A stretch of DNA of 26,263 nucleotides. It comes from a virus. Numbering within the stretch: the first letter of the stretch is position 1; the number at the start of each line of letters is the position of its first letter. Under the pieces are notes generated by a model. It made no database searches. It worked only from the letters and a program-made list of their open reading frames with translations, and had not been told where the DNA came from. Location: positions 1 through 26,263 of IMG/VR virus record IMGVR_UViG_3300043464_000286. One strand, 5' to 3'. Shown in pieces: positions 4,246 to 18,556 of this stretch. A program made the translations under genes and the position numbers.

Positions 4246-6018
4246 TTATTTAGCCTCCAGTTCAGCGACACGCGCTGTCAGTTCTTGAATTGCTTTGACC
4301 AAAATCGGGATCAATGACTGATACGCGACGTTAAGGTGATTCGGGCCAGCCTGCACGATGCCGTCAACGTAGTCTTTGCCAGTCAATACCGCTTGCAGTT
4401 CTTGCGCGATAAAGCCGGTCTGTACATTTTGATCCTTGGAATAATCCGGCTTGTATTTGAAAGTCACGGGGCGAAGTTGTGACACTACGTTTAGACCATC
4501 GTTCAACGTCGTAATGTTGTCCTTCAGTCTCGCATCTGATCCGTTGACGTAAGCGCCAGCACCCCATACGCCTGTGCCGTTACATTGGAGATTGTAAGGG
4601 CCGTTGTCGGTTGTTGCGGCAATAAGTACTTCACCAGAAGTTCTGTTGAACGTAATGGTGTGAACGTCAGTTGTGCTATTAACGCGGCGATATAGATCAA
4701 GGTTTCCGTTTGTTGCGTTGTTGTACCAAAGCCATCCGTAAGTTGCTGAAGAAATTGTGTCGTTGTTTAAAGAAGCAAAAAACGGAACAGTGTCGCTGTT
4801 ACCTTCATTGATATGCGTAAAGGAAGCATTTCCGATAACAATTTTTGAACTAGGCGCAGCAGTGCTGTTAATTGCCAAATTCCCAGCAAAATAATTTGCC
4901 GCCGTCCCCGCTGCATAGAAGTTCCAGCGGTTAGAGCCAGAGGCGATGTTGCTGTAGAAGCCGTAGTTGTTGGTGGCAGATGTCATTGCATCTGCATAAA
5001 ACCCATAACTATTGGTAAGAGAAGCGCCAGAGCCTAATGCGACGTTAGCCGCTAAATAGTGAAAAACATTTGTTGTTGCTGTGGATGCGGCGATTGACGG
5101 CCCCGTGCGAAAAACGTAAGCACTACCCGTAATGGCGCTAGGGACTTCTAATACCGGATATATGCCGTTTGAATTTGCATTGCCACCTAAGACAGGGAAA
5201 CTACCTAACAATTCAAGTTTTCTATTTGCAGTTGGCGTCCCGCCGATCCCGACGTTGCCGGTGGAAGAAATACGCATTTTTTCCGTTGGAGAAGCCGACG
5301 CAGCGCCAGTTGACGTATAGAAACCTAGAGCAGCGCCATAACTTCCGCTGTCGTCAATTTCAAGGATGCCGCTACCCCAATAACCAGCGGTATGCTCCGA
5401 CATGGAAAATCCAATACCAGAATGGTAAGTGCCACCACCGCCCCAACCTTTGAGCACCAACTGTGGCGCTTGGCGCAACGACGGCGCAGCAGAGCCGCTA
5501 CCTTGGTTTACTTCTTCTTTGAAATTAGGCGAAGCCGTCCCAATACCGACGTTGCCCGACGTATCTATCCTGACCCTCTCGCTGCCGCTGGTGTAAAAGG
5601 TCATCGGAAGGTAGGTAGACCCACCATCAGAAATATTAGCCCGCAGACTTGATTCGGTTGCAGTTACTAATAAATTCAAACCAGAAGCAGCAGAAATAGA
5701 AGAATTGCTCCAAACATTGACGTTTGCTGTCGTTCCGGTTCCATTTGGAATTACGCCAAGCCCAGTTGTTCCATTTGTCGTACTGGTTTGAAACAGTAAC
5801 CGACTAGCAATTGTCGCATTGCTAAAGTCGCCCGTAATGCGCTGGGCGGTGCTGGAGAACGTGAGGTTGCCGGACGTAATCGTCGTCGCAGGCATCGAGG
5901 CTGCGATGTTCGTCAGCGTCAGTTTGTAGTTAGCGCCGGATCGAGCAACAACGTACTCGTCGCCAGCCTGTGCCGGGGCGCCAGACGCTAATTGGGAAAT
6001 CTTTTTGTCAACAGCCAT
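4246..6018 (-). CDS. Tail fibre with C-terminal S74 intramolecular chaperone
   Basis: From the ATG at 6018 this is a 590-aa receptor-binding fibre. The N-terminus carries the KISQLASGAPAQAGDEYVV module shared with the tailspike at 2088. A long Ser/Thr/Gly/Asn-rich shaft follows, with repeats such as S-(T/S)-G-N-V-G-I-G near residues 160 and 260. The last ~100 residues are a peptidase S74 auto-cleaving chaperone. NGSDARLKDNI carries the Ser-Lys dyad (S494, K499, spaced as in endosialidases), followed by QTGFIAQEL, a conserved tail and a coiled-coil end. The chaperone should trimerise the fibre and then cleave itself off just before the dyad serine. A start nine codons further upstream is possible, but GGAG six bases before 6018 favours this one. 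Confidence 0.92.
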   Translation of the reverse strand: MAVDKKISQLASGAPAQAGDEYVVARSGANYKLTLTNIAASMPATTITSGNLTFSSTAQRITGDFSNATIASRLLFQTSTTNGTTGLGVIPNGTGTTANVNVWSNSSISAASGLNLLVTATESSLRANISDGGSTYLPMTFYTSGSERVRIDTSGNVGIGTASPNFKEEVNQGSGSAAPSLRQAPQLVLKGWGGGGTYHSGIGFSMSEHTAGYWGSGILEIDDSGSYGAALGFYTSTGAASASPTEKMRISSTGNVGIGGTPTANRKLELLGSFPVLGGNANSNGIYPVLEVPSAITGSAYVFRTGPSIAASTATTNVFHYLAANVALGSGASLTNSYGFYADAMTSATNNYGFYSNIASGSNRWNFYAAGTAANYFAGNLAINSTAAPSSKIVIGNASFTHINEGNSDTVPFFASLNNDTISSATYGWLWYNNATNGNLDLYRRVNSTTDVHTITFNRTSGEVLIAATTDNGPYNLQCNGTGVWGAGAYVNGSDARLKDNITTLNDGLNVVSQLRPVTFKYKPDYSKDQNVQTGFIAQELQAVLTGKDYVDGIVQAGPNHLNVAYQSLIPILVKAIQELTARVAELEAK

Positions 6019-15063: not shown

Positions 15064-15321
15064 ATGAAGCCTTACGCACAATACAAACCAGACGGCAAAC
15101 TCTGGTCAGCAGGTCGCACCATTTATGGCCTCTGCGCTGCTTATAACCATGCCACAAGTCCGTCACGCCTAATGACGGACGAGCAGCACCAACGTTCCAA
15201 CGTCTACGCTCGTGCAATCCGTAATCGCATCAGACGCATGGGCTACCGATACGGAGAGCATTACTCGGAATGGTCGAATGGTGCGCTCTATCCGTGTTCT
15301 GTTAAGTCTGCCAATCCCTAG
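15064..15321 (+). CDS. Early protein ending inside the ribozyme (85 aa)
   Basis: The 85-aa basic product begins MKPYAQYKPDGKLWSAGRTI and has a helical middle (DEQHQRSNVYARAIRNRIRR) followed by a GYRYGEHYSEWSNGALYP beta-like end. GGAG lies eight bases before the ATG. Its TAG stop (15319-15321) lies inside the 5' strand of the outer stem II of the hammerhead ribozyme, so a terminating ribosome would cover that stem. I do not recognise the family. Confidence 0.8.
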   Translation: MKPYAQYKPDGKLWSAGRTIYGLCAAYNHATSPSRLMTDEQHQRSNVYARAIRNRIRRMGYRYGEHYSEWSNGALYPCSVKSANP

Positions 15322-15385
15322 AGAGGTCGAAACGCCGAGAGGCGTCAGGCAGTCACGCTGCCTCTGATGAGACCAACAAACTAGG
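15317..15385 (+). ncRNA. Type II hammerhead ribozyme
   Basis: All conserved core bases are present. CTGATGA is at 15364-15370, GAA at 15329-15331, the A15.1-U16.1 pair is A15332-T15345, and the cleavage-site base is C15346 in a GTC triplet, so cleavage is expected between 15346 and 15347. Stem III is ACGCC/GGCGT (15332-15336 with 15341-15345) with a GAGA loop. Stem I is AGGCAG/CTGCCT (15347-15352 with 15358-15363) with a TCACG loop. Stem II is GGTC/GACC (15325-15328 with 15371-15374), beginning with the standard G10.1-C11.1 pair, then an internal loop (AGA opposite AACAAA), then CCTAG/CTAGG (15317-15321 with 15381-15385). Stem II is the open end, which makes this type II. The internal loop and loop I are placed for the usual tertiary contact. 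It lies between a stop codon and the next Shine-Dalgarno. Confidence 0.95.
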
Positions 15386-15395
15386 AGATATGCAC

Positions 15396-15695
15396 ATGGG
15401 TTACACGATCAACGACGCCGACAGCCGTTACAACGGATGGACAAACTACTCTACATGGCGCGTCAATCTGGAGATCTTCGACGGGTTCGACCCCTCTGAC
15501 TATTTCTCAGGCTTTGACGCTGACGATATCGACGCATTGGCTGACGGCTTGCGCGACTACGCCGATCAAGTGTTGTTCGAGTGCGCTACCGTCGAGGGGT
15601 TAGCCGCTGACTATGCCCGCGCCTTTCTGTCAGACGTTAACTGGCGAGAGATTGCCGAGCATATGTTGGACGCCATCAAGCAGGAGGCCGCATGA
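15396..15695 (+). CDS. Acidic early protein (DUF7249-like)
   Basis: This 99-aa acidic protein has YNGWTNYSTWRVNLEIFDGF near its start, a motif (NGWTNY-x-TWRV-x-LE) I recognise in small phage proteins called DUF7249. A helical, Asp-rich region and a VNWREIAEHML helix follow. The ATG at 15396 is preferred over that at 15390 because AGGAG at 15383-15387 is eight bases from it but only two from the other. That Shine-Dalgarno overlaps the 3' strand of ribozyme stem II, so ribozyme folding or cleavage may control access to it. Confidence 0.85.
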   Translation: MGYTINDADSRYNGWTNYSTWRVNLEIFDGFDPSDYFSGFDADDIDALADGLRDYADQVLFECATVEGLAADYARAFLSDVNWREIAEHMLDAIKQEAA

Positions 15696-17154: not shown

Positions 17155-17175
17155 GAGGGGGCTACGCGCCCCCTC
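17155..17175. terminator. Hairpin between convergent operons
   Basis: GAGGGGGC (17155-17162) and GCCCCCTC (17168-17175) pair perfectly over 8 bp around TACGC, two bases after the last early gene and just before the end of the minus-strand ATPase gene at 17178. The T-tract after it is weak (TCTCATTT). The position between convergent genes suggests a terminator working in both directions. Confidence 0.7.
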
Positions 17176-17177
17176 TC

Positions 17178-18503
17178 TCATTTCACCACCTGCAAGTCAG
17201 GCTTGCCCTCGGCAATCGCTCGAATCTCCGACTTGGTACGGTTCGCCAACTCTGGAGCAATCCAAAGATGTTTGGGCGTTTGATGCTCGCGGCTCATCAC
17301 TCGGCCAACGTCCTTCCAACCGCTCTCCCGTAGGGCTACGAATAACGCCTCACGGGAAGGCTTATGGCCGTCTGTCAAGGCGGCAAGTTCAGCCAGTACC
17401 GCATACCACGGCGAACCCACAACGCCCTTGGCGAACACTCCACGGCGTTGCCGCACCATTTCCGCGATAAACGCCTCGCCCCCGCTCATGCCGAGGTCAA
17501 CCATCGCCAACTTCGCATCGGTAATCGGCGGCACGGCTCCAGGATTGAACGCGCTAACGTCTCTCGCGTCGAGGTACGCCGCCACAGCCTCAAACCCGCC
17601 GTTGTGATACCACTCCCACAGCCTCGCAGCCTCGTTATCGGGTAGGCGAGGGGCTTGCGACCAAATCACAAACCAGCGGCGGTCATCAGCGGGTATCGTA
17701 ATCGGCGCACGTTCGTTGCTGAACGCTAAAACGAGAATCCTATTGATGACGTAATAAGGGTGTTGTTGCTTCTTGTTGACCATTAGTAACTCGGGCGGCG
17801 CAGCGATCACGGGTTTCAGGTTGTTTTCCATCGCTCGACGGTCATCGCCCTTGCGGTATCGAATCTCGTTTAGCACGATCACCTCGGACTCGTAGGTATA
17901 ACCCCACGACCCTGCGACCTCTTCAGCCCTAGCCACGGCTATGTTTCGCAGCGCATCACCGCCAATAGACCATAGGAAAGGAGCCCATAACGTGTCTTTG
18001 CCCGATCCAGGCGCGCCCGTATGCAGCACGGCATGGTTTATCTTCCGGTTCGGGTGCTGCCGCTTATAGGCCATCACATTCAAAACGTGTTCGCGCTCGA
18101 AGTCTGTCGGAATCATCCGCTGTAAGTGATGGAGCCACGGCGACACATCCCCGCTAACGGCGGCTGGCCGTGCGCTCTTCCACTTGTTCACATGGGCAAC
18201 GCCCGAGCGTTTCAGCAACTCGGTTTCACCAGGCGCGTAGGTCAGGGCACTGGCAACGTAACTACCCATGGCCGCTCGGTTCTCATCGAAGAACGTGGCC
18301 GCCTCGATACGTCGAGACTTGTTGTGTACGGAATAGCACGGCGTACCCCGAAACAGGGCGTTAAACGTCTGCCGGGAATAGTCCTGATGCGTCTTTACAT
18401 CAAAAAACAGGTCGCCCTCGGCAACGTAAACGAATCGTTTAAACCAGTCAGCCGGTGCCAACTGCGATACATCACCATCCGCGAGACTTTCGTATTCATC
18501 CAT
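17178..18503 (-). CDS. DUF5906-type replicative ATPase/helicase (SF3-like)
   Basis: This 441-aa protein has Walker A GAPGSGKDT (about residues 163-171) and a Walker-B-like VIVLNEI (about 208-214), followed by a conserved NRILVLAFSNE sensor-like strand and a PADDRRWFVIW arginine region. This is the DUF5906/NrS-1-type primase-helicase ATPase layout, related to SF3/D5 helicases of phage replication modules. It lacks an obvious primase domain. The ATG at 18503 has GGGG seven bases upstream; a GTG at 18533 would add ten residues. It is the last gene of the minus-strand recombination operon. It likely unwinds DNA at phage replication. Confidence 0.9.
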   Translation of the reverse strand: MDEYESLADGDVSQLAPADWFKRFVYVAEGDLFFDVKTHQDYSRQTFNALFRGTPCYSVHNKSRRIEAATFFDENRAAMGSYVASALTYAPGETELLKRSGVAHVNKWKSARPAAVSGDVSPWLHHLQRMIPTDFEREHVLNVMAYKRQHPNRKINHAVLHTGAPGSGKDTLWAPFLWSIGGDALRNIAVARAEEVAGSWGYTYESEVIVLNEIRYRKGDDRRAMENNLKPVIAAPPELLMVNKKQQHPYYVINRILVLAFSNERAPITIPADDRRWFVIWSQAPRLPDNEAARLWEWYHNGGFEAVAAYLDARDVSAFNPGAVPPITDAKLAMVDLGMSGGEAFIAEMVRQRRGVFAKGVVGSPWYAVLAELAALTDGHKPSREALFVALRESGWKDVGRVMSREHQTPKHLWIAPELANRTKSEIRAIAEGKPDLQVVK

Positions 18504-18530
18504 TGCATTACCCCACTGGTCTGCTATTCT
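18503..18530 (+). promoter_or_regulatory. Possible plus-strand promoter antisense to the ATPase leader
   Basis: TTGCAT (18503-18508), a 16-base spacer, and TATTCT (18525-18530) preceded by TGC form an extended minus-10 promoter candidate. With the plus-directed terminator at 18582-18607 it would give a short RNA of about 70 nt, antisense to the minus-strand leader. The match is moderate. Confidence 0.35.
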
Positions 18531-18556
18531 CACGGAGCATTGCGATTTTCTCCGTG
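18531..18556. promoter_or_regulatory. 7-bp inverted repeat in the ATPase leader
   Basis: CACGGAG (18531-18537) and CTCCGTG (18550-18556) are perfect inverted repeats around 12 bases, just upstream of the ATPase start. On the minus-strand RNA the hairpin would include GGAG and the alternative GTG start. It could be an operator or a translational hairpin. Confidence 0.5.

Follow-up and report, generated by a model that had tools for sequence, protein, structure and literature searches.

The window, i.e. the complete stretch of 26,263 nucleotides analysed in this study, comprises on its plus strand a complete type II hammerhead ribozyme, which lies between the stop codon of one gene and the Shine-Dalgarno (SD) sequence of the following gene (Table 1). 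This assignment had already been made in the initial annotation, including the full core, a GNRA loop, the cleavage position and the location between stop codon and SD sequence; it was confirmed by sequence and fold, and self-cleavage of the RNA is predicted. We assume, with a probability of about two in three, that the ribozyme is a cis-acting cistron separator, which would divide the polycistronic phage mRNA into single-gene pieces with hairpin ends. The assumption is based on the observed sequence, structure, covariation, position, recurrence and gain and loss at the junction, and would comprise cleavage, protection of the RNA ends and a competition with ribosomes as its proposed steps.

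Table 1. Coordinates of the ribozyme, its parts and the flanking features (positions of the window unless another record is named).
Feature	Positions	Strand	Basis
Upstream gene, 85 aa, TAG stop at 15319-15321	15064-15321	+	ORF list; kept in 22 viral loci
Outer helix, 5' strand including the TAG stop; predicted to pair with 15381-15389, A15386 bulged	15314-15321	+	RNAfold; lineage-specific
Type II hammerhead ribozyme, full core and three stems: GGTC GAA ACGCC GAGA GGCGT C / AGGCAG TCACG CTGCCT CTGATGA GACC	15325-15374	+	Sequence, fold, Rfam match, covariation
Stem II, 5' strand GGUC; partner 15371-15374	15325-15328	+	Two-sided changes at 3 of 4 pairs among relatives
Catalytic core GAA (G12 A13 A14)	15329-15331	+	No variation in alignment A1
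Stem III hairpin ACGCC-GAGA-GGCGU with A15.1-U16.1 pair; strands 15332-15336 and 15341-15345, closed by GAGA; A15.1 is 15332	15332-15345	+	Fold and compensatory changes
Expected cleavage, C17 (15346) / 15347	15346-15347	+	Inferred from the core motif
Stem I hairpin AGGCAG-UCACG-CUGCCU, 17 nt, UNANG pentaloop; strands 15347-15352 and 15358-15363, loop 15353-15357	15347-15363	+	Two-sided changes at 6 of 7 pairs; product fold
Catalytic core CUGAUGA	15364-15370	+	Alignment A1
Stem II, 3' strand GACC	15371-15374	+	Sequence and covariation
SD sequence AGGAG of the downstream gene	15383-15387	+	Sequence
Downstream gene, 99 aa from ATG 15396, DUF7249-like (PF23907; phrog_871)	15396-15695	+	ORF list, Pfam/PHROG, relatives
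Ribozyme array of G098	L383 3886-9257 (record G098:C1, about 13.9-19.3 kb)	one strand	Scanner and R1 model

The element shows the features of the hammerhead class, namely the core motifs CUGANGA and GAA, the A15.1-U16.1 pair, an H at position 17 and three stems, and its loops close stems I and III, leaving stem II open as in the type II permutation. The minimum-energy fold calculated with RNAfold for positions 15310-15392 is the hammerhead structure (-28.7 kcal/mol, z -3.3). No other hammerhead permutation was found in a scan of the whole window. A transcription terminator was considered and rejected, the U-run being absent after both hairpins. Inspection of the 3' tail AACAAACUAGGAG revealed no 4-nt stretch complementary to the loop UCACG, and hence no pseudoknot with loop I.

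The Rfam model for type II hammerheads (RF02276, Hammerhead_II), which the initial annotation had proposed as a check, matched positions 15325-15381 of an 86-nt query with 22.3 bits and an E-value of 0.0066, but this score lies below the gathering cut-off of 37 bits. The match was lost in a 301-nt query, in the search of the whole window at the gathering cut-off and in the whole-record search. Since 22.3 bits fall short of the cut-off, the ribozyme is overlooked by routine annotation. As a control for chance, the window was simulated 13,762 times with a first-order Markov model and the copies were scanned, yielding 11 matches with stem thresholds of III>=4, I>=5 and II>=3 and one match with III>=5, I>=6 and II>=4, while the real window gave exactly one scanner match, which is this ribozyme. 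A chance match is ruled out by these copies together with the compensatory changes in relatives.

To collect such relatives, the neighbouring proteins were used to gather 67 and 22 viral loci, on which the structural scanner was run. Among related viral contigs, 20 further distinct forms of the ribozyme were obtained, with compensatory changes in all three stems. For stem I these include AGGCAG/CTGCCT, TAGCAG/CTGCTA, AGGCGG/CCGCCT, ATGGCG/CGCCAT and TACGGG/CCCGTA, for stem II GGTC/GACC, AGGC/GCCT, TGGC/GCCA and CTAT/ATAG. In alignment A1, 96.4% of the cells are paired and two-sided changes occur at 11 of 16 pairs, compared to 22-53% pairing in slid controls. Alignment A2 (112 distinct rows) showed 96.6% pairing and a covariation score of 0.655 versus 0.035-0.103 after sliding, its rows having been fitted to the model and thus being biased towards it. 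Both alignments back the stems by compensatory changes, as is typical of the hammerhead class. Neither the scanner nor the R1 model detected a comparable hammerhead in the named phages closest by terminase, MW202483 and OR003940 (about 69% identity). A DNA similarity search of the named-phage collection gave nothing for the region, a short-query search returned weak unrelated matches only, and the strict scanner found zero matches in PaP3, for which a hammerhead with core variation was reported.

The 85-aa protein encoded upstream of the ribozyme gave no match in Pfam and PHROG searches. For the downstream gene, ATG 15396 is the most likely start instead of the listed ORF start 15390, because this ATG lies 8 nt after the AGGAG and is the start common to the relatives. 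The strand CTAGGAG is also present in the ribozyme-free relatives L007 and L023 and is therefore regarded as part of the downstream gene's own leader. Further along the window, a terminator-like hairpin (17157-17174) immediately precedes the end of a primase-like gene on the minus strand (17178-18533), and by this position lies between two converging gene clusters.

Beyond the close relatives, two pattern scans of viral contigs yielded at least 370 distinct sites. Among the matches listed, the length of the stem I hairpin showed two main peaks, at 17 nt (204 of 370) and at 21-23 nt (97 of 370), which are not imposed by the pattern, since lengths of 15-28 nt were allowed. The 17-nt form comprises a G-C closing pair and a loop of U-N-A-N-G with A in 72% and the final G in 82%; over all sites, 85% have an A before stem II and 88% a purine after it, again among the matches listed. 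This describes a pseudoknot-free sub-form with a 17-nt stem I hairpin, a UNANG pentaloop and a 4-bp stem II, found at no fewer than about 200 phage-contig sites and including the ribozyme of the window. At the Rfam cut-off, copies of the longer form were found and none of the short form. Of 36 whole records, the 34 chosen for the short form reached 35.7 bits at best and missed the cut-off of 37 bits, which both records chosen for the longer form passed. Perfect copies were present in 31 of 31 bacterial contigs pattern-matched for the short form, many of them metagenome bins and all taken irrespective of prophage status. The taxa include Gastranaerophilales, Synergistaceae, Paraburkholderia, Rhizobiales, Acidobacteria, Verrucomicrobia and others. 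The initial annotation had regarded an internal loop of stem II as suited to a tertiary contact with loop I; loop I is retained in this proposal, but the contact is probably formed between the UNANG pentaloop and the purines beside the fixed 4-bp stem II, because those positions are the conserved ones.

The position between two genes recurs as well. At the 182 short-form sites with enough flanking sequence among the matches listed, an upstream open frame had its stop nearby in 96% and an SD sequence with a start codon followed downstream in 91%. The respective values were 50% and 12% for the antisense strand, and 45% and 27% for randomly chosen places, the open frames in these counts being called simply and not by a gene finder. 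The end of the stop codon lies at -4 to +1 of the first stem II base in 132 of 176 sites, and apparently few upstream genes read into the ribozyme. The distance from cleavage position to start codon is mostly 40-69 nt with a median of 50.5 nt (all among the matches listed). A stop codon right at the ribozyme edge is thus a general feature of the sub-form, which could merely reflect compact genomes. A tie to one gene family was rejected, as the 177 downstream proteins of the matches listed fall into 145 clusters.

In the mechanism proposed for the cistron separator, the RNA would fold as soon as the polymerase has passed position 15374 and would cut itself at the expected position. The upstream piece would keep its stop codon and 25 nt behind it, so that upstream termination would not be lost, and would end with the stem III hairpin carrying a 2',3'-cyclic phosphate. 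The downstream piece would begin with a 5'-hydroxyl at the blunt stem I hairpin, followed by the remainder of a 49-nt leader (15347-15395) with an intact SD sequence. When the products were folded, each piece carried a hairpin at the newly formed end, the upstream one stem III (3' end) and the downstream one stem I (5' end). In RNA decay generally, 3' exonucleases are impeded by a 2',3'-cyclic phosphate and a hairpin, and 5'-end-dependent RNase E by a 5'-hydroxyl next to a blunt hairpin. Both pieces would be translatable, with ends of the kind that resists exonucleases and 5'-end-dependent RNase E. In phage T7, polycistronic early mRNA is cut between genes by RNase III, leaving hairpin ends; while T7 uses a host enzyme for this purpose, the RNA is predicted to cut itself here. 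With the TAG in the A site, a ribosome would shield the RNA up to about position 15331, i.e. the stem II strand and the GAA. Since the stop codon touches the ribozyme edge, cutting would take place in the gaps between ribosomes and would be slower with heavy translation of the upstream gene. As the window contains only one copy, just one junction would be cut there.

In the lineage of the window phage, cutting would also release the SD sequence from the outer helix. The minimum-energy fold of the window places the SD sequence in a helix, and its predicted accessibility rises from 0.20 uncut to 0.85 cut; for the window together with the three closest full matches the predicted values are 0.05-0.24 and 0.84-0.88. 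These values could be explained by a translation-coupled switch, in which the outer helix ties the stop codon to the SD sequence, the uncut RNA hides the latter and a ribosome or cleavage opens it, so that the main role would be the timing of the downstream gene and not the separation of mRNAs. We regard this as unlikely. Outer helices were counted at 27 of 198 sites among the matches listed versus 23.8 +/- 4.4 in re-paired flanks, which is no enrichment, and over the class the mean SD accessibility is unchanged (0.48 versus 0.52; 163 sites among the matches listed), the other relatives not showing the change. Both strands of the helix are parts of the adjacent genes and are also found separately (L012, L077, L023), one pair is broken in L076, and compensatory changes were not seen in the outer helix. 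Hence, the two-part stem II described in the initial annotation exists in this sequence as stem II plus an outer helix but is not a class feature, and the change in SD access proposed there holds, as a prediction, for the window phage and its nearest relatives but is not a rule. Since both the helix enrichment and the SD change are absent class-wide, the switch is kept as a lineage-specific possibility.

In the phage record G098 (39,356 bp), the scanner detected ten strong matches, and the R1 model gave eleven and an additional weak one. All copies are of the short form and lie on one strand within about 5.3 kb, a few hundred nt apart and most of them directly after a stop codon. Judged from this arrangement, the gene cluster would cut itself into single-gene mRNAs.

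At the junction of the window's downstream gene, L001 carries the ribozyme, whereas L006, L007 and L011 have at most 2 nt at this place, the flanks on either side being 90-94% identical. The site is likewise empty in L025 and L026, the downstream flank of which aligns at 74%. These pairs indicate that the element is gained or lost as a whole, comprising about 50 nt, and, since all five are close relatives lacking it, that it is dispensable. In L077 (4262-4331), an apparent chimera was found, the 5' half of which resembles the window and the 3' half another allele, and in which the first, outer pair of stem I is disrupted; this suggests recombination within the ribozyme. The same observations would fit a passive or selfish junction element, which spreads by homologous recombination between gene borders, persists because cutting itself at a border does hardly any harm, and offers a shared sequence that aids the shuffling of modules. 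The occurrence of the same ribozyme beside differing upstream or downstream genes (L012, L071, L001, L013, L016) points in this direction too. Nevertheless, the strong conservation with compensatory changes, the fixed geometry across phyla and the dense arrays exceed what hitchhiking would need, and we consider this explanation quite improbable. At the same junction, L022 (near 3795) and L024 (near 783) contain, in place of the ribozyme found in relatives, a core-less GC-rich hairpin (GGGCGG...CCGCCC), which is similar to stem III of L028.

That the element is a hammerhead by sequence, but stays uncut or is cut too slowly at physiological magnesium, is very improbable, as the missing pseudoknot, the low Rfam score and the 4 of 18 consensus hammerheads left uncleaved in a 2011 survey (PMC3088659) are opposed by a core that is intact in the window and nearly all relatives and by loop I and flank positions that are conserved as a tertiary contact would need.

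Type II hammerheads at phage gene borders have been known since 2011. Perreault et al. described prophages that each contain several of them, located around single genes; such multi-hammerhead arrays cleaved in vitro as well as in E. coli, and activity was observed for 14 of the 18 consensus hammerheads that were tested (PMC3088659). Bacterial hammerheads occur near phage genes, the reason being stated as unknown (PMC10085705). The published phage and prophage form (PMC3088659, RF02276) shares the catalytic core, the permutation with open stem II and the location in phage gene clusters with the ribozyme described here, but has a stem I hairpin of 21-23 nt, the loop of which forms a pseudoknot with the 3' tail, instead of the 17-nt stem I hairpin with its UNANG pentaloop. 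In the haloviruses HF1 and HF2, the hammerhead HHphage lies upstream of a helicase gene in a polycistronic early region, and a 5' end was mapped within 3 nt of its cleavage site (PMC3088659); its core is a variant and its host archaeal, whereas the core of the window is canonical. The HDV-like theta ribozymes of gut phages (PMC10879173) are likewise a case of self-cleaving RNA processing in tailed phages, but possess another fold and cut behind tRNAs and not between protein genes. No description of the short sub-form as a unit, of the placement locked to the stop codon or of an array of about eleven copies was found in the open literature, although the 2011 data set may include pentaloop members.

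Altogether, the sub-form could represent a standard phage cistron separator, which lies below the Rfam cut-off and between stop codon and SD sequence, operates at up to about a dozen consecutive junctions and provides hairpin-capped monocistronic mRNAs without host nucleases, the cut being timed by ribosomes at the stop codon; this generalisation is tentative, and we would give it somewhat less than an even chance. The function of the many phage and bacterial hammerheads has been a question since 2011, and the placement, the presence/absence pairs and the arrays provide testable predictions, namely that 5'-hydroxyl ends occur at fixed sites, that both pieces end in hairpins and that the process depends on translation of the upstream gene. 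The gap in the database is relevant, with at least about 200 sites and 0 of the 34 tested sub-form records reaching the Rfam cut-off. As a separate observation on the longer form, two pseudoknot-type type II hammerheads were found in tandem, a few bases apart, on the minus strand of L242 (about 5049-5185).
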